This document shows, piece after piece, positions 2,947 to 12,860 of a DNA stretch of 32,121 bases. Source of the DNA: Rickettsia typhi (GTDB lineage: Bacteria > Pseudomonadota > Alphaproteobacteria > WRAU01 > Hepatincolaceae). The position numbers were made by a program, and so were the translations under genes. How positions within the stretch are numbered: the first letter of the stretch is position 1; the number at the start of each line of letters is the position of its first letter. The stretch is taken from contig CAMCZU010000008.1 in NCBI GenBank assembly GCA_945888065.1, forward strand, positions 1 through 32,121, given 5' to 3'. The notes under the pieces were generated by a model, which saw only the letters and a program-made list of their open reading frames with translations, was not told the DNA's origin and searched no databases.

Positions 2947-3384
2947 ATGAATATGTATTCTAGCAATTACAATATGAAGCCTCAGCAAGGTAAAGGTTAT
3001 GGATCTTCTTACAAACGTTCTTCCCAGATACAAAAACCTTCATTTGGAAAATCTTATAATCAAAGTTCATCTAATTCATATGCTGGAAATAATTTTAGCT
3101 CACCAACAAAACAAAATTCTAGATCTTTTACTAAAAGCTCGTCTTTTGGTAATTCTTCTATGAATAATAGCAATATGATGATGGGTGGTGGAAATAGATC
3201 ACAACAACCATCTAAAAGCTTTAGAAGATCTTCTTCTTTTGGTAATTCTTCTATGAATAATAGCAATATGATGATGGGCGGTGGAAATAGATCACAGCAA
3301 CCATCTAGAAGCCCTAGAAGATCTTCTTCTTTTGGCAATTCTTTGTCATCGGGCAATAGTAGAAATTCTTTTAATAGATATTAA
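2947..3384 (+). CDS. Low-complexity Ser/Asn/Gly/Met/Arg-rich repeat protein
   Basis: I do not recognise this 145-residue protein. It has no signal peptide, membrane segment or folded-domain signature. Ser, Asn, Gly, Gln, Arg and Met dominate, with many single Phe and Tyr residues. The second half holds two nearly identical 31-residue repeats (residues 64-94 and 95-125), each built as SSSFGNSSMNNSNMMMGGG, then NRSQQPS and a basic end, plus a third partial copy starting at residue 126. The basic, Gly/Ser/Phe-rich make-up resembles the C-terminal tail of the DEAD-box helicase at 5348-6685, which suggests RNA binding or condensation as an inference only. Its promoter region carries a palindrome. 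The TAA at 3382-3384 overlaps the stop of the opposite gene in one shared TTAA. A 98-codon open frame on the other strand is a by-product of the repeats. Confidence 0.7.
   Translation: MNMYSSNYNMKPQQGKGYGSSYKRSSQIQKPSFGKSYNQSSSNSYAGNNFSSPTKQNSRSFTKSSSFGNSSMNNSNMMMGGGNRSQQPSKSFRRSSSFGNSSMNNSNMMMGGGNRSQQPSRSPRRSSSFGNSLSSGNSRNSFNRY
3136..3342 (+). repeat. 93-bp in-frame tandem repeat (two full copies and one partial)
   Basis: Copy 1 spans 3136-3228, copy 2 spans 3229-3321, and a third, diverging after about 20 bp, starts at 3322. The full copies differ at only a few positions (GGTGGTGGA versus GGCGGTGGA; the Lys-Ser-Phe versus Arg-Ser-Pro codons near the end), which points to recent duplication. 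The unit length is a multiple of three, so copy-number change keeps the frame. Confidence 0.95.
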
Positions 3385-4697
3385 TTATTTTTATTAATTT
3401 TTTTAATTATAATAGTTAAATCTTTACTAAATTTTATTTCTTGTTTTATCATTACAAAAGATAAAAAATTAAAACTAGTTAATTTAAAATAATTATCTTC
3501 TGGCAGAACACTTCTTATATTTTCTTGATAAATAATCTTATTGTTATAAATCACTTTATCACCTTTTAGAATTTTTATGTTTAACGAATCTCCAATTAAT
3601 ATATCAAAATCATCAATTAAATGCTTTGATATATTTGTAATTAATTGATTATTATTATTATATATAATTGCACCAGATATGGTTGATTCGGATTTGTTAA
3701 TTTTTGGATCTATATAATTATCAATAACTAAATTTTCTTTAGGGTAAGATTCTCCAAAATTTAAAAAAACAATCTCTTTGGTAGCAAGTTGTGCCATCAT
3801 ATAAAAATAAGCATATTTGCTTTGAGAAAACATACTCATATAACCATATAAATTTATTTTTCTTACATCTAAAACTCCAACCGTAGCCTTAAGCAAACTT
3901 ATCATACCATTGTTGGGTATAATAAAATAATGCAATGATTTTGTTTTTACTGCAATCATTTCTGATTTTTTATCATAATCTGATACAAAAATAGTATTTG
4001 GTGCCCAATAAATTAAAGAGTTTAATAAATTATACATAGCTATATTGGGATTTTTATCTATAGGCAAATATACGCTTTTAGATTTTTCTGCTTTAGAATA
4101 TAAAATAGCAGAGATATTAGGATCAATAGAGGTAGTAAAATCATTTTTTAAAATTACAATTGCTGGATTGCGTGAAAATTTAAAATTATAAGGATTTACA
4201 ATATCATTGTAATTATCTATGTCATATTGAGTAAAAGATTCTAATGTTTCTCCCCCATTGTAATACAAACCCTGAGTTTGATTTCTAGTTTTTGATTTAT
4301 TTTTTGTTCTGCTTAAATAACTTGCATCAACTGATGGCAAATTATAATCTTCTTCTTCCCCAACAATAGTTCCATTTTTCTCTACAGATTTACTAGATGG
4401 TGTTTTGTAGTTGTTATTGTGGAAATCTATTTGTTTATTATAATTATCATTGTTATTATTATAATTTTTGTTTTGAGGAATGTTTGTACCTGATTGCTTT
4501 TGATTGTTTTTTGCATCTAAATTGTTACGAATTGATTCTTCTTGATCTCTTTTACGTTGAGTCTCTAAAATTTCTTGTTTTTGTTGTGCTTCTTTTTTTG
4601 CTTTTTCCTCTGGAGACATTGGTAAAATTTTTGCAGATAAATTGCTAATAAATAGTAAAACAATGCATACCCTACATAATATTACAAAAAAACGCAT
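3381..4697 (-). CDS. Secreted protein with a degenerate SAM-hydroxide adenosyltransferase (DUF62)-like domain
   Basis: The 438-residue protein has a signal peptide (about 1-22), a charged Glu/Lys/Gln segment that may be a coiled coil (28-60), an Asn-rich probably disordered linker (60-150), then a folded part (about 175-430). That part follows the order of landmarks in the SAM hydroxide adenosyltransferase/fluorinase family: a first strand ending NDF (185-187, family TDFG), DPNISAIL (192-199, family D..VG..K), a TIFVSDYD segment (235-242, family VVDPGVG), FIIPNNG (258-264, family PDNG), FSQSKYAYFYMMAQLA (290-305, family FHGRD.F.P.AA.LA), and GAIIYNNNNQLITNIS (342-357, family G.V...D.FGN.ITN). 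The Arg after DPGVG, the HGRD residues and the final FGN are absent, so SAM cleavage is unlikely. The parent family is cytoplasmic; export is odd. AAGGA lies 9 nt before the ATG. Homology is inferred by eye. Confidence 0.6.
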   Translation of the reverse strand: MRFFVILCRVCIVLLFISNLSAKILPMSPEEKAKKEAQQKQEILETQRKRDQEESIRNNLDAKNNQKQSGTNIPQNKNYNNNNDNYNKQIDFHNNNYKTPSSKSVEKNGTIVGEEEDYNLPSVDASYLSRTKNKSKTRNQTQGLYYNGGETLESFTQYDIDNYNDIVNPYNFKFSRNPAIVILKNDFTTSIDPNISAILYSKAEKSKSVYLPIDKNPNIAMYNLLNSLIYWAPNTIFVSDYDKKSEMIAVKTKSLHYFIIPNNGMISLLKATVGVLDVRKINLYGYMSMFSQSKYAYFYMMAQLATKEIVFLNFGESYPKENLVIDNYIDPKINKSESTISGAIIYNNNNQLITNISKHLIDDFDILIGDSLNIKILKGDKVIYNNKIIYQENIRSVLPEDNYFKLTSFNFLSFVMIKQEIKFSKDLTIIIKKINKNN

Positions 4698-5012: not shown

Positions 5013-5240
5013 ATGGTTAAAGGAACTGTAAAGTGGTTTAATTCAAAAAAAAGATATGGTTTTATTTTACCAGAAGATGGTGGTAAAGATATATTTGTAC
5101 ATATGAATGCTTTAGAACAATCTGGGTTAAGATTTTTAAATCCAGGTGATGAAATTAGCTATGATGTAGCTATGGATAAAGATAAAGAAGTTGCTGAAAA
5201 TATAAAAGTATTAAAAGCAAATAAAACTTCAAGATTTTAA
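5013..5240 (+). CDS. cspA: Cold-shock domain protein (Csp family)
   Basis: This is a 75-residue single cold-shock domain of usual length. It binds single-stranded RNA or DNA and keeps mRNA unfolded in the cold. It starts GTVKWFNSKKRYGFI; RNP1 is KRYGFI where most relatives have KGFGFI or KGYGFI, so Gly is replaced by Arg. RNP2 is intact as DIFVHM (residues 25-30). Glu/Lys-rich beta strands and a short basic end follow. It has its own promoter and a leader of about 150 nt, and is followed by a strong hairpin separating it from the DEAD-box helicase. Cold-shock proteins and DEAD-box helicases commonly act together on structured mRNA, so the pairing is probably functional. Which Csp paralogue it is cannot be told from the window. 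Confidence 0.93.
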   Translation: MVKGTVKWFNSKKRYGFILPEDGGKDIFVHMNALEQSGLRFLNPGDEISYDVAMDKDKEVAENIKVLKANKTSRF

Positions 5241-5347: not shown

Positions 5348-6685
5348 ATGGAAGATTTTTCACAATTTGCATTACCAATTTTTTTACAAAATTCATTAAA
5401 AAAATTAGGTTATGCTAAGCCAACTATTATTCAAGAGAAAGCTATACAATTTATTTTAGATGGCAAAGATATTTTGGCTACAGCACAAACTGGTACAGGT
5501 AAAACTGGTGCTTTTTTAATACCTCTTATCACTTATTTAACCAACAATCCACAATCTGGAGCTTTAATACTAAGCCCTACTCGTGAATTATCACAACAGA
5601 TATATAGTGTAGCATTACAAATGCTACATAATAATAAAGATATCAAAGCAGCTTTATTAATTGGCGGAGATAGCATTCACAAACAAATTTTTCAACTTAA
5701 ACAATCTCCTAAGCTTTTAATAGGAACCCCTGGTCGTGTTAGTGATCATATTAATAGAAAAAATATTAACTTAAGTTCAACATCTTTTGTAGTTTTAGAT
5801 GAAACAGATAAAATGGTTGATATGGGATTTGGTATTCAAATTGATGAAATTTTTAAATTTTTACCTAAAACAAGGCAAACAGCTTTATTTTCTGCTACTA
5901 TTCCTAAAAGTATCTTAAAATTAGTAAACAATTATTTAACCAACCCTGTAAGAGTTGAATCAGGAGAAGTTAATAGTATTTCAACAAATATAAACCAAAC
6001 ACATATAAACACAAATAATAAATATGCTGAATTATTGAAAATTTTAGAAAATCATTCTGGAACAAAGATTATTTTTGTTAAAACTCAAAACAAAGCTTTT
6101 GAACTATGTATGAAAATTAAAGATCAAAACTATAGAGCTAATTTTATTCACGGAGGACTAAAACAAACTAATAGGAACTCTGTTATTAAAAATTTTAGAG
6201 AACAAAAGTTTGATATTTTAGTTGCTACAGATGTTGCTTCCCGTGGATTAGATATATCTCATATGTCTTATGTAATTAACTATGATTTACCTGAAAATCC
6301 AGAAGATTATGTTCATAGAATTGGTAGAGTTGGCAGGGGTGAAAATACTGGTGAAGCTATTTCTTTAGTATCTGAAAGTGATAAAAATTTATGGAAAAAT
6401 ATCCAAAAATTTATCAATAAAGAAGAAGTTGATGAAAGTTATAGAAATCAATACAAGAAAAAAAGTAGTGGTTTTAAAAATAGAGGTAGCAGTTCTTTTG
6501 ATTCTAAAAAACCTTTTAGCAACAAAAGTCGTTTCCCAAGAAAAGAAGGAAGCAATTTTAGTGGAAATACATTTGGGGAAAAACAAAGAAGAACATCAAG
6601 TGGAGAAAAAAAGCCTTTTTTTGGTGAAAAAAAATCTTTTAGTGGTAATTTTAAACCAAAAAAACCTTCTACATTTAGAGATTAA
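5348..6685 (+). CDS. DEAD-box ATP-dependent RNA helicase (RhlE/CsdA-like)
   Basis: This 445-residue protein unwinds short RNA duplexes using ATP, probably in ribosome assembly or cold adaptation. Motifs appear in order: Q motif (GY at 21-22, Gln29), Walker A AQTGTGKT (46-53), PTREL (77-81), TPGR (127-130), motif II DETD (151-154), SAT (182-184), ATDVASRGLD (293-302) and HRIGRVGR (323-330). Motif II reads DETD rather than DEAD; the residues that matter for ATP hydrolysis (D151, E152) and D154 remain. After the core a basic Gly/Ser/Phe/Lys-rich tail (about 370-445) is typical of RhlE-like enzymes and binds RNA non-specifically. An AAGGA site 7 nt before the ATG supports the start. The gene follows cspA, separated by the hairpin. 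A long frame across the tail on the same strand is a shadow. Confidence 0.92.
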   Translation: MEDFSQFALPIFLQNSLKKLGYAKPTIIQEKAIQFILDGKDILATAQTGTGKTGAFLIPLITYLTNNPQSGALILSPTRELSQQIYSVALQMLHNNKDIKAALLIGGDSIHKQIFQLKQSPKLLIGTPGRVSDHINRKNINLSSTSFVVLDETDKMVDMGFGIQIDEIFKFLPKTRQTALFSATIPKSILKLVNNYLTNPVRVESGEVNSISTNINQTHINTNNKYAELLKILENHSGTKIIFVKTQNKAFELCMKIKDQNYRANFIHGGLKQTNRNSVIKNFREQKFDILVATDVASRGLDISHMSYVINYDLPENPEDYVHRIGRVGRGENTGEAISLVSESDKNLWKNIQKFINKEEVDESYRNQYKKKSSGFKNRGSSSFDSKKPFSNKSRFPRKEGSNFSGNTFGEKQRRTSSGEKKPFFGEKKSFSGNFKPKKPSTFRD

Positions 6686-7782: not shown

Positions 7783-8553
7783 TTAATTCTCTAAAGTATC
7801 AATTAAATACCATAATTTATGTAAAGCTTTATCTTTGGCTCTAAAAGATGCATAAACATCTTGTTCTTGAGAATCTACAATATGACTTGCAAAAACAATA
7901 ATTTTATCATTTTTTTCTATAAATCCAATAAACCATCCGTGTTGTAATTGTGTTAAATTTCCCCTCTTATCTTTAAGATAACCATTTCCGCTCTTACCAT
8001 AAAGTTGCCAACCACCAGCTAACTCTTGAGTGAATAAAATTTTTTTAGTTTCTTTGTAAGCTGTTGAACTAATATCAAATTTTTTATCTAGCATATTTTG
8101 TAAAAACTCTATTTGTTCATTAGGAGAAATTAATAAAGAACTTGAAAGCCAAGCATCATTAATTCCACCTGAAACATCCATATTACCATAAGTAAATTGT
8201 TTAATATAAGAGTTAAATTTGTTTAATCCTAGTTTGTTTGTTAAAATTTGTGAATACCATACACAACTATCTCTCATCCAGCTTTTAGGGTTATGGGGTG
8301 TTTTACAAACATTAATATTTGCTTTTTTATCTTGTGGTAAATTCCAAGTAGGATCTAATGAATTATTTAAAATATGCGAATCAAATCCCATTAAAGAGAG
8401 CGGAATTTTAAATGTAGATTGTGGTGGATATTTATCATCACAATTACCTTGTATTATAATTATTTTATAATTTTCTTTTGCAACAAAGCAATCTTCTTTA
8501 GCAAAAAGGATATTACTTATCAACAATAATAAAACACAACATATATATAACAT
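7783..8553 (-). CDS. bla: Class D (OXA-type) beta-lactamase
   Basis: Class D enzymes hydrolyse beta-lactams in the periplasm through an acylated serine and a carboxylated lysine. The 256-residue protein has a signal peptide (about 1-18) and the class D motifs in order: active-site STFK (46-49), S-x-V as SCV (96-98), YGN (122-124), the omega-loop DAWL...ISPNEQ with W135, KSG (187-189) and HGWFIGF (206-212). Length is normal, and all catalytic residues are present, so it is probably active. Which drugs it acts on cannot be read from the sequence; chromosomal OXA-like enzymes often have weak natural activity. It has its own start with a 5-bp gap to tRNA-Ser at its stop end. No insertion sequence or integron feature flanks it, so it looks resident rather than recently acquired. 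Confidence 0.93.
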   Translation of the reverse strand: MLYICCVLLLLISNILFAKEDCFVAKENYKIIIIQGNCDDKYPPQSTFKIPLSLMGFDSHILNNSLDPTWNLPQDKKANINVCKTPHNPKSWMRDSCVWYSQILTNKLGLNKFNSYIKQFTYGNMDVSGGINDAWLSSSLLISPNEQIEFLQNMLDKKFDISSTAYKETKKILFTQELAGGWQLYGKSGNGYLKDKRGNLTQLQHGWFIGFIEKNDKIIVFASHIVDSQEQDVYASFRAKDKALHKLWYLIDTLEN

Positions 8554-9078: not shown

Positions 9079-10194
9079 CTATTTATATAAATCTGAAAAA
9101 AATATATCTGCTTGTTTTTGAATTTCTGCTTTAATAAAATCAGTAGGAATAGTATCAATATTTCTATTGCTAATATATTTAATATTAAAAAACATATTTT
9201 TTTTCATAATATTATTTTCATAAATATTAATAGATACAGGCAATATTATAGTAAAAAAGTTTTTGCTAATTTCATTTATCTCTATGCTATTAAATACAAT
9301 ATTAATATTATATTTTGGTGTTTGAGTAATTTCCATTTGATTATTTAAAGCAAGATTATTCATAATATCATTTAATATACCAGCTTCTATAGAACTATTG
9401 TTTTTAATAGCAAGTTTTATAGGAATTTTTTTATCTAATTTTTTTTGCAAATAAACTTTTTGCACAACCTCATCTTTATCTTTTAAATCTATAGTTCCTA
9501 ATTTATCCACATAACCATCATAAATAATTTTGTATGTATAGGTTCCTGCATTTAAGTAAATATCTTCATAAGCATTATAAATGTTATTATTTAATGCAAT
9601 TTTTACATTTTGTAATTTAGGATAAATATTAAAATTTAAAATAGCAGAAGCATCTAATTTTCTATTTAATATTTCTAAAGATGCAAGTAAATTTTCCACT
9701 TGAGAATCATCTAATACATTTGTATCTTTTGATTTAGCAAACCCATTTAATGCTAATAAAAAATTGATTTTACTTCTTTGCTCTGTAAGTAAATATTTTT
9801 GCATTGTGCTATAATTTTGAGGAGTAATTTGAGTATACAAATAATTTATATTATCAATTAACGCTTGAGATGTTAAACCAACATCTACTGAATATTCACC
9901 TTTTTTTAATGATTTTATGTTATAAAAATCATAATTTTTTAAATAACCACTAGAATATAAAAAGATACTATTTTGTGCATTTTGGGTAAATTTTTGATTT
10001 TCAAGATTTTCTTGCAAAGAAAAATTATTTTTAATATTTACAAAAACTACATTATTTAAATTAGAAAGTGCATTAGTTTTTGCTAATTCAATAGAGCCAC
10101 CCACACCATTGGCAAACAATATGTAGTCTTGCTTATTATTATGAGAACATCCAAATAATACTAATGAAAAAAGCAATACTACATATTTATACAT
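9079..10194 (-). CDS. Lipoprotein with LPP20-like and PEGA-like regions
   Basis: The 371-residue protein is a lipoprotein: a signal peptide ends in the lipobox LVLFGC with C16 as the lipidated residue. Residues about 25-110 follow the LPP20-type pattern (A.G.G...ELAKTNAL..L..VVFV, later a G-Y-S-V-D-V-G strand). A segment at about 188-252 resembles a PEGA domain: IYLNAGTYTYKIIYDGY followed by a strand ending KVYLQKK; PEGA domains occur in envelope proteins and their ligand is usually unknown. The C-terminal third has alternating beta-type sequence without a recognised family. It is the last gene of the lipoprotein set, 5 bp after lpoB, so it is co-transcribed and probably acts with LpoB at the outer membrane or cell wall. 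The specific role is unknown. Confidence 0.7.
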   Translation of the reverse strand: MYKYVVLLFSLVLFGCSHNNKQDYILFANGVGGSIELAKTNALSNLNNVVFVNIKNNFSLQENLENQKFTQNAQNSIFLYSSGYLKNYDFYNIKSLKKGEYSVDVGLTSQALIDNINYLYTQITPQNYSTMQKYLLTEQRSKINFLLALNGFAKSKDTNVLDDSQVENLLASLEILNRKLDASAILNFNIYPKLQNVKIALNNNIYNAYEDIYLNAGTYTYKIIYDGYVDKLGTIDLKDKDEVVQKVYLQKKLDKKIPIKLAIKNNSSIEAGILNDIMNNLALNNQMEITQTPKYNINIVFNSIEINEISKNFFTIILPVSINIYENNIMKKNMFFNIKYISNRNIDTIPTDFIKAEIQKQADIFFSDLYK

Positions 10195-10199
10195 TACAA

Positions 10200-10763
10200 T
10201 TACCTTTTGCTAATTTTATTTAACTCTGATTCATCTATCCAAACCTCTTCACCTGTTTGAATATTTTGAATTACTAAGTTAAATTTATAATAAACTTGTT
10301 TTTCTTTACCTACATAATTTACAATAGAACTAAAATTACCATATAAAACATATTGAGCTCCCCAAAGCTTACCTAATTGAGTAGCTTTTTGACTATCTGT
10401 TAGCCCCGACTGGTTTAAAGATTGCTCTTTTGCTAAAATATCCATTTTATCACGATTAATTACAGAAAACATTCTAGCTTTTACAATGTTCATTTTAATT
10501 GTATCTGTCATACTTTCTGTATCTATTTGCTCTGATGTTTTATTTTTTACAATGTCTATTAAAAGAGTTGGTTTTTGATTACCTAATTCTTGCTTAAAGG
10601 CATTATCATTAACTAACTTACTTACTAATGTTTCTACTAACATTTTTTGATCTGAAACAGAAAAAGATGCAGATAAAGTATTTTCTGAAACACTTTGATA
10701 CTTTGTTTTTGGACCACAAGAACCTAATACTAATAACAATAATAAAATTAAAATATTTTTCAT
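10200..10763 (-). CDS. lpoB: LpoB-like penicillin-binding protein activator lipoprotein
   Basis: LpoB is an outer-membrane lipoprotein that reaches through the peptidoglycan and stimulates the synthase PBP1b. The 187-residue protein has lipobox VLGSC (C16), then a domain of the LpoB/COG3417 type: KPTLLIDIVKNKTSEQIDT (65-83), MFSVINRDKMDIL (98-110), LGKLWGAQYVLYGNFSSI (131-148), and the closing strands NLVIQNIQTGEEVW. This matches the LpoB family throughout, with the long disordered linker of the Escherichia coli protein shortened. GAGGT lies about 12 nt before the ATG. It sits 70 bp after the COG3014 gene and 5 bp before the LPP20/PEGA-like gene. In distant bacteria this combination also occurs, and the PBP-activating role there is inferred. 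Confidence 0.85.
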   Translation of the reverse strand: MKNILILLLLLVLGSCGPKTKYQSVSENTLSASFSVSDQKMLVETLVSKLVNDNAFKQELGNQKPTLLIDIVKNKTSEQIDTESMTDTIKMNIVKARMFSVINRDKMDILAKEQSLNQSGLTDSQKATQLGKLWGAQYVLYGNFSSIVNYVGKEKQVYYKFNLVIQNIQTGEEVWIDESELNKISKR

Positions 10764-10833
10764 TACTAAAATACCTCTTAGCTAATTTGTTTATAATAAC
10801 TTAAATATAACATAAAAATTAAAAAATAATATT

Positions 10834-12276
10834 TTATTTTAATCCCTTATAAATAATATTATGATAGATGTAATTACCACTATCAATAATATATAAAATT
10901 GCAATTTCACCATTTTTTAGGTTAAGATTATCTACCTTAATTTTTCTTCCATTAGAATAAACTTCTATATTGCTCATATCTTCATTTGTATTAATTTTTG
11001 CTACCTTAACATATTGTGGCAAAGTTTCAAATGATCTTGTATCTGCTTTTTCTACAGCCGAACTAATTGCTCCTGCTATTGCTACTGCTGTTCCTGCTAT
11101 TTGTGCTCCTTGTGATTTATCATTTACTCTTTGATAGCTATTTTGCATTGTTAATTTAGTTGTAAGCCTTGTAATTTGCCTTAATAAAATAGCACTATAG
11201 TTTTCTGATAATTCATTATTAGCTAATAACCCTATATTTGTTAAATCATCTAACACAATGTTATTATTATTAAAATTAATATATGGAGAGCTAGATTTAG
11301 AAGAATTTTCATAAACTGGTAATGAAATTTTTACATATCTGTTGAATTCAAACAAATACACACTTCCTGTTTTAGCAATTTTTTTTTGAATAAATTGATC
11401 CTCATAAACAATTAATAATGTTTTAGAGTTTTTATATTCATTTTGGTCTTTAAAATCTATATTTGGATTATTTTTAATAATTGTATTATAAAATGTGTTA
11501 TCATTTTTTTGTGATAACCTTAATAAATCTTGTAAAATACTATCATTATTATAATTAATTTCATATGCATTTTTATAATCCACTAAAGCACCATTAACAT
11601 CACCATTTAACTCTCTTATATTGCCTGATATGTAATATATGTAAGGATTTAAAAATTTTTCTTTTAATGATCCTCTTATTTGTTGAGATTCTTTTAAGTA
11701 TAAATTAATATCGCTTGAAAATTGGTATTTACTAATATTGGCTTCTGTTTTGTCTATTTTATTTTCACGATTTGCAATAGCTAACTTTTGAGAATCATTT
11801 GTTGCCCTAATTTCTACCATAGATTTTTCTAAATCATTAAGCTTTAAATAATTTAAAGCTTGATAAAAATGGACTAAAGCTCTTTCGTAGTCTGAACCTA
11901 AATATTGCAATGAGTTGTCATCTGCTATTGTAGAAGCTAGAACTTTATTTTTAACACTTTTTAAATTAATTTTTGCTATATCTTCTTGCTGAGCATAAAA
12001 AGCAATTGCATTGTTAAATTTGTTTACTGATGTATTGGTATCATTAATTATAAAAGCTACCCTACCTGCTTCTTGCAACAAAAGTAAATAATTTTTAGAC
12101 TTTTCATTTGCATCTAAATCTTTTAAATAATTTATTTTATTTAAAAATTTTTCTTCTAGTTTATTGGATTGTAAGTCTGCTATTTTTTGATCAACTGGCT
12201 TATGATTATAAGCACATCCAAAAATAAACAAACTTACAAAAACAATAAAAAACTTTATTTTATATAATATATACAT
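10834..12276 (-). CDS. COG3014-family lipoprotein
   Basis: This 480-residue lipoprotein has lipobox FIFGC (C21). The first half is helical with TPR-like pairs (about 85-260; LVHFYQALNYLKLNDLEKSMVEIR is typical of COG3014), the second half contains a segment QGAQIAGTAVAIAGAISSAVEKADTRSFETLP (384-415) with a hydrophobic Ala/Gly patch that is characteristic of the family, followed by beta strands. The function of COG3014 is not known; its usual neighbours are LpoB-like and LPP20-like lipoproteins, as here, which suggests an envelope complex. It starts 3 bp after the LPP20 gene's stop, so they are translated from one message. Confidence 0.8.
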   Translation of the reverse strand: MYILYKIKFFIVFVSLFIFGCAYNHKPVDQKIADLQSNKLEEKFLNKINYLKDLDANEKSKNYLLLLQEAGRVAFIINDTNTSVNKFNNAIAFYAQQEDIAKINLKSVKNKVLASTIADDNSLQYLGSDYERALVHFYQALNYLKLNDLEKSMVEIRATNDSQKLAIANRENKIDKTEANISKYQFSSDINLYLKESQQIRGSLKEKFLNPYIYYISGNIRELNGDVNGALVDYKNAYEINYNNDSILQDLLRLSQKNDNTFYNTIIKNNPNIDFKDQNEYKNSKTLLIVYEDQFIQKKIAKTGSVYLFEFNRYVKISLPVYENSSKSSSPYINFNNNNIVLDDLTNIGLLANNELSENYSAILLRQITRLTTKLTMQNSYQRVNDKSQGAQIAGTAVAIAGAISSAVEKADTRSFETLPQYVKVAKINTNEDMSNIEVYSNGRKIKVDNLNLKNGEIAILYIIDSGNYIYHNIIYKGLK

Positions 12277-12279
12277 TCT

Positions 12280-12831
12280 TTATTTTATTAAAATTTCTTT
12301 TAATTTATTAACATCTGGTTCGTTTAAAGTTTTAGCATTTTTATTAATTATTTCTTGGATAAAATTTTTATACATATCTGCATCAAAACCTACTATAACA
12401 TACAATGTTCCATTTAAACTTGTTGCTTCTTTGTATACTCTGGTTCCTTGTAAGGATTGATTTGTAATTTGATTAATTATTACCGAAGAATTTTTTTCTA
12501 TATTTTGCTTATCTGCAACTCCATTAACAGATGTATAATTACTAACCTGAGATTGAATATCTGATTTAACTTGTTGTGCCAAGATTGCTCTTGCATTTGC
12601 TGTAGCTTGTTGCTTCATAAAACTAATTCCTGCTACACTTTTTTCTATGCTACCTACTGCAGATACAGATAATCCATCTAATTTTGCACCACAAACCCAT
12701 AGAGGAGCCTTTTCTTTTGGAGAATCTGGATAATAACACTCTGTAATTTTTTGGCTTAATTCTTTATTTGAACATCCATAGCTTAATAGCATTAAGAACG
12801 ATAACATTATATACAACTTATTTTTAATCAT
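12280..12831 (-). CDS. LPP20-family lipoprotein
   Basis: The protein is a small lipoprotein with lipobox LSYGC (C20 from the chosen start). The mature part begins with the LPP20 pattern C-Y-Y-P-D-S-P...PLWVCG, then SVSAVGSIEKSVAGISFMKQ and a helix with ATANARAILAQQVKSDIQSQV, closing with LYVIVGFDADMY. LPP20 proteins were first described as surface lipoproteins of Helicobacter pylori; here the role is unknown. I chose the ATG at 12831 over the TTG two codons upstream because AAGGAG lies 7 nt before it; this gives 183 residues. It opens the lipoprotein set and starts 30 bp after the symporter gene stop, so the symporter may be read on the same message. Confidence 0.85.
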   Translation of the reverse strand: MIKNKLYIMLSFLMLLSYGCSNKELSQKITECYYPDSPKEKAPLWVCGAKLDGLSVSAVGSIEKSVAGISFMKQQATANARAILAQQVKSDIQSQVSNYTSVNGVADKQNIEKNSSVIINQITNQSLQGTRVYKEATSLNGTLYVIVGFDADMYKNFIQEIINKNAKTLNEPDVNKLKEILIK

Positions 12832-12860
12832 TTTCAATCTCCTTGTTTGTTGAAAATTAT

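Follow-up and report, generated by a model that had tools for sequence, protein, structure and literature searches.

The window, which is the whole 32,121-nucleotide stretch of Hepatincolaceae DNA that was analysed, contained on its minus strand a gene for a putatively exported DUF62-like protein of 438 amino acids without the catalytic triad (hereafter P0001). The gene was found at nucleotides 3381–4697 (open reading frame 4697..3381 from the ATG, stop included), and all of its parts described below lie on the same strand. The chance of 438 open codons was about 1e-18 at the window GC of 23.6%. The GC of the three codon positions was 0.32/0.26/0.15 in the whole gene and 0.29/0.24/0.14 in the DUF62 domain alone; this gradient resembled that of the neighbouring genes, and the region is therefore not drifting non-coding DNA. 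A promoter and terminator scan gave nothing better than shuffled sequences. A gene encoding a CspA-like cold-shock protein (5013–5240, plus strand) was present between the DUF62-like gene and a divergently oriented DEAD-box helicase gene (5348–6685, plus strand). On the other side, a plus-strand gene (2947–3384), with its last 4 bases in common with the 3' end of the DUF62-like gene, encoded a basic, low-complexity protein of 145 amino acids. It was rich in Ser, Asn, Gly and Met, had no Pfam match and contained a repeat of about 31 residues in two nearly identical copies (SSSFGNSSMNNSNMMMGGGNRSQQPS...). Elsewhere in the window, the minus strand contained a gene (7783–8553) for an exported protein of 256 amino acids; it contained a transpeptidase domain of the penicillin-binding type (PF00905, 141 bits) and resembled a class D beta-lactamase by its STFK, SCV and KSG motifs. 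Four putative lipoproteins were clustered at 9079–12837 on the minus strand: an LPP20-like protein (below the cut-off), an LpoB-like protein (PF13036, 120 bits), a possible TPR protein and LPP20.

P0001 begins with a putative signal sequence at residues 1–22 (MRFFVILCRVCIVLLFISNLSA; nucleotides 4632–4697). The best 12-residue hydrophobicity within its first 30 residues was 3.05, which falls among the values for the evident lipoproteins and exported proteins that the window encodes. Cleavage after LSA-22 is likely, and it is possible that residues 1–22 serve as an uncleaved anchor. Residues 23–175 (4173–4631) comprised a charged stretch (27–62) followed by a low-complexity linker rich in Asn, Lys and Gln, with 16% N, 11% K and 22% hydrophobic residues. 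Of the preliminary description, an N-terminus of exported appearance, a charged stretch and an Asn-rich linker were recovered, with export still putative. The core of the Sec system and Tat are reported to be present in the Hepatincolaceae, with few other secretion systems (PMC11724238). Residues 176–438 (3384–4172) carried the putative DUF62 fold, of which both the N-terminal and the C-terminal domains could be aligned.

P0001 is a homologue of the DUF62 (SAM hydroxide adenosyltransferase) family, whose enzymes form homotrimers that hydrolyse SAM to adenosine and methionine in active sites located where subunits meet. Residues 217–283 (3849–4049) matched Pfam PF01887 (SAM_HAT_N) with an E-value of 4.2e-6 and 27.0 bits, just above the curated gathering cut-off of 26.3, and in a six-frame scan P0001 was the only PF01887 match of its genome (28.7 bits). 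The orthologous protein P0002, described below, scored 54.3 bits. A phmmer search of P0001 against 2zbu, a DUF62 protein of Thermotoga, gave an E-value of 0.0016, which became 1e-12 when a profile of P0001 and P0002 was compared with the DUF62 chains of the PDB. The same two-row profile was aligned by hhalign with five DUF62 members of the exported clade over 233 columns (99.8%, E=7e-30). AlphaFold models of both proteins, built on the two-row alignment, were of low confidence (mean pLDDT 54 for P0001, with a pTM of 0.52, and 48 for P0002). The 40 best PDB matches of the P0001 model in Foldseek (E<=1e-3, top 1e-8) were all DUF62, fluorinase or chlorinase structures, and the low-confidence P0002 model matched the same families. 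The homology to DUF62 that had been proposed for the C-terminal part therefore stands. The modelled fold appears to be that of DUF62, in which an N-terminal alpha/beta/alpha domain is followed by a C-terminal domain of antiparallel beta strands, with the catalytic residues gone.

The DUF62 hydrolases are defined catalytically by an Asp-Arg-His triad, D68-R75-H127 in PH0463 (PMC4859513, PMC10491745). The residues of P0001 were read from a family alignment, which also supplied the columns of the first strand that were wrongly placed in MAFFT pair alignments. At residues 238–246 (3960–3986), where VSVVDPGVGTxRKS is expected, P0001 contained only VSDYDKKSE, so the loss covers the entire VVDPGVGxxR loop and not the Arg alone. 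The TFHGRD motif was replaced by F290-S-Q-S-K-Y295 (3813–3830), in which HGRD became QSKY and the catalytic His was lost. At residues 345–351 (3645–3665), which include NNNNQ, the adenosine-site motif D-x-x-F/Y-G-N was lost, N348 to N350-Q351 standing at its position (FGN became NNQ). The domain contained three Arg (176, 279 and 395) and two His (256 and 359), none of them at a triad position. The Arg and His were absent in both P0001 and P0002, and an Asp could be aligned in P0001 only, where D242 may be its catalytic counterpart; P0002 lost all three triad residues and kept the GRD of HGRD. Among the substrate motifs, P0001 retained D186, the Asp of TDFG (here NDFT), and PNNG. P0002 contained N139 at the position of D186, QNSG for PNNG, no FGN and nothing aligned to D242. 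The halogenase SAM pocket (TDFG-type Asp, PxNGL and IDxxFGN) was thus not intact in P0001, with FGN lost and TDFG altered. All three losses named in the preliminary description (the Arg after DPGVG, HGRD and FGN) were confirmed, and the triad remained broken in both proteins once they were aligned.

One orthologue of P0001 was found among 58 relatives, namely P0002 (E=1.8e-13), on contig WRAU01000003 of the MAG Alphaproteobacteria bacterium Lab288P1bin49 (G002). A MAG from Labiotermes labralis has been placed in the Hepatincolaceae and, in GTDB, in the order and family WRAU01 (PMC11724238); judging by accession prefix and host code, we infer that the two MAGs are the same. The P0002 gene was divergent from an orthologous DEAD-box helicase gene, as in the window, and both loci had further genes in common nearby (SRPBCC-like, ComEC and two glycosyltransferases). 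The two proteins share the helicase neighbour, a putative signal sequence (with a classical AMA cleavage site in P0002), a linker and a DUF62 domain with a broken triad. At 26% identity, P0002 differs in keeping GRD, in its linker of 108 amino acids rich in Lys, Ala and Pro at the place of the P0001 linker, and in an additional Asn/Thr-rich tail of 94 residues. The gene was not found in the remaining two genomes of the order and is therefore dispensable at this level; SAM synthetase was encoded in all four. In a class-wide search of 385 genomes, the profile of P0001 and P0002 matched only these two proteins, and an exported-clade profile matched 59 genomes, mostly in the N-terminal domain only. 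A partial match in the alphaproteobacterium G292, which belongs to another family, was rejected as a third degenerate case, as its DPGVG, HGRD and YGN were intact and a signal peptide was absent. That protein (L242:4817–5890) is an odd DUF62 of 357 amino acids with an extended N-terminal half and intact triad motifs. Searches of the genome contigs gave no match with P0001 and only its own MAG with P0002, and neither the two profile scans of the viral contigs nor the three DNA patterns used on them revealed a DUF62 relative.

When P0001 and P0002 were compared with 45 proteobacterial DUF62 proteins by BLAST, the best matches of both, by a wide margin, were L163 and L164 (E=5.7e-17 for P0001 and 9.6e-31 for P0002 against L163). 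Both are part of a clade that bears signal peptides and intact triad motifs and contained members from E. coli, Aeromonas, G700 (L163) and G739 (L164) and one of two paralogues of G901; a signal peptide was clearly absent only in the Listeria and Enterococcus members. In the tree, P0001 and P0002 were sister to this exported clade with a support of 99/99. When one sequence was left out, P0002 alone joined the clade at 97.2 (starred) and P0001 alone at 92.5 (not starred). Their branch lengths were 4.07 and 3.24, respectively, against 0.17–0.64 in the sister clade. A long-branch error in their placement is possible; the BLAST ranking and the common position of the two point to the same grouping. 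P0001 kept 31, and P0002 28, of the 73 residues whose conservation is restricted to the exported clade (about 40%). The parent enzymes had earlier been taken as cytoplasmic, which is wrong for these nearest relatives. Because the latter have signal peptides and intact triads, and the grouping is supported at 99/99, export probably came first and catalysis was most likely lost later, inside an already exported clade, in contrast to the recent export of a cytoplasmic enzyme.

Some further genes of the exported clade were observed. In E. coli KE47, the DUF62 gene (L222:8149–9051) was situated between yigE and uvrD, contained an internal stop and was annotated as a pseudogene. The two paralogues of G901 (L192, G901:C35) were adjacent and in opposite orientation, with intact triad motifs in both and a signal peptide in one. 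On an Enterococcus plasmid (L224:5989–9990), genes for the substrate-binding, ATP-binding and T components of an ECF transporter came after the DUF62 gene.

On balance, we consider it fairly probable that P0001 is an exported (periplasmic or surface) protein of DUF62 fold that does not hydrolyse SAM and is kept for binding or structure; a role as a binding or scaffold protein is plausible. An ancestor within the Hepatincolaceae would have possessed an exported DUF62 enzyme, whose catalysis was lost and whose two-domain, probably trimeric body was retained, so that the present protein would act without chemistry. It would most likely be a structural or binding module, spaced from the membrane or envelope by the flexible low-complexity linker, the composition of which would be free to differ between genera. 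A narrower version, in which the DUF62 body was turned into a lineage-specific surface or envelope binding protein of the Hepatincolaceae for life at the host gut microvilli, is unlikely. The long branches and the patchy presence argue for a changed or weak constraint. Two sequences, each at the end of a very long branch, provide a weak test of whether the body is constrained. By Fisher test, residues conserved in the whole family (active site) were not lost significantly more than those conserved only in the clade (p=0.19 for P0001 and 1.0 for P0002), and selection for the fold itself is thus unproven.

This similar rate of loss also suits a gene in decay, in which selection on an exported DUF62 enzyme would have relaxed as the symbiont genome became reduced, leaving it functionless and with the reading frame still open. 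The very long branches, the lack of a copy in two of the four genomes of the order and the small, AT-rich genome suit such a process, in which, however, stops or frameshifts would be expected. Instead, many clade-specific residues were retained, and the reading frame, the coding signature and the neighbourhood persisted in two genera at 26% identity, which makes ordinary decay less likely; we regard it as rather unlikely. That P0001 is still an enzyme, acting on a different substrate through a novel active site with residues such as D186, D242 and N263, is quite improbable. P0001 does keep D186 and PNNG, its D242 may match the catalytic Asp, and fluorinase and chlorinase perform other SAM chemistry on the same fold without the triad (PMC10491745). 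However, the differences of P0002 at D186, PNNG and D242 leave no candidate active site common to the two proteins, and FGN is missing in both. Pseudoenzymes often retain ligand binding. With the exported DUF62 ancestry and the ECF transporter beside the Enterococcus genes of the sister clade, P0001 might also be considered a receptor outside the inner membrane, still able to bind SAM, adenosine or a related nucleoside without hydrolysis. This is very improbable, as most ligand residues were changed (FGN lost and TDFG altered), no transporter adjoins the P0001 gene, and SAM synthetase in all four genomes of the order leaves no evident need for SAM uptake.

DUF62 enzymes are widespread and of debated biology; a role in SAM repair has been discussed for them, as has their kinship with the biological halogenases. 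Neither the fold nor the family nor the existence of exported members with an intact triad is new, and the new element is an exported branch without the triad and with long linkers. In the open-licence papers that were searched, we found no description of such a branch and no paper treating the exported DUF62 clade, E. coli included, to which P0001 draws attention. If the preferred reading of P0001 as an exported non-hydrolysing protein is true, the branch was exported and then lost its triad, and the DUF62 fold would be usable without SAM chemistry. P0001 would then be a candidate for a protein of the envelope in gut symbionts reported to be without most secretion systems (PMC11724238).

Compared with the DUF62 enzymes (PF01887), such as PH0463, MJ1651, 2zbu and the stereoselective (R,S)-SAM hydrolase StDUF62, P0001 appears to have the same fold and domain order and matches the family above the cut-off, but its Asp-Arg-His triad is broken, and most of the compared enzymes contain no signal peptide. 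The fluorinase (FlA) and the chlorinase (SalL), which were among the top Foldseek matches, have the DUF62 fold and are likewise without the hydrolase triad. They keep the SAM pocket with D16, N215, PxNGL and IDxxFGN (PMC4859513), whereas FGN is lost in P0001. The exported gammaproteobacterial clade (E. coli beside yigE/uvrD, Aeromonas, L163 and L164), whose E. coli member is named SAM hydrolase/SAM-dependent halogenase family protein at NCBI, has a signal peptide, which is putative in P0001, and the two-domain layout of P0001. Its members keep VVDPGVGTxR, TFHGRD and YGN (Y/FGN) and contain short linkers or none, whereas in P0001 all three motifs were altered and lost and the linker extends to about 150 residues.
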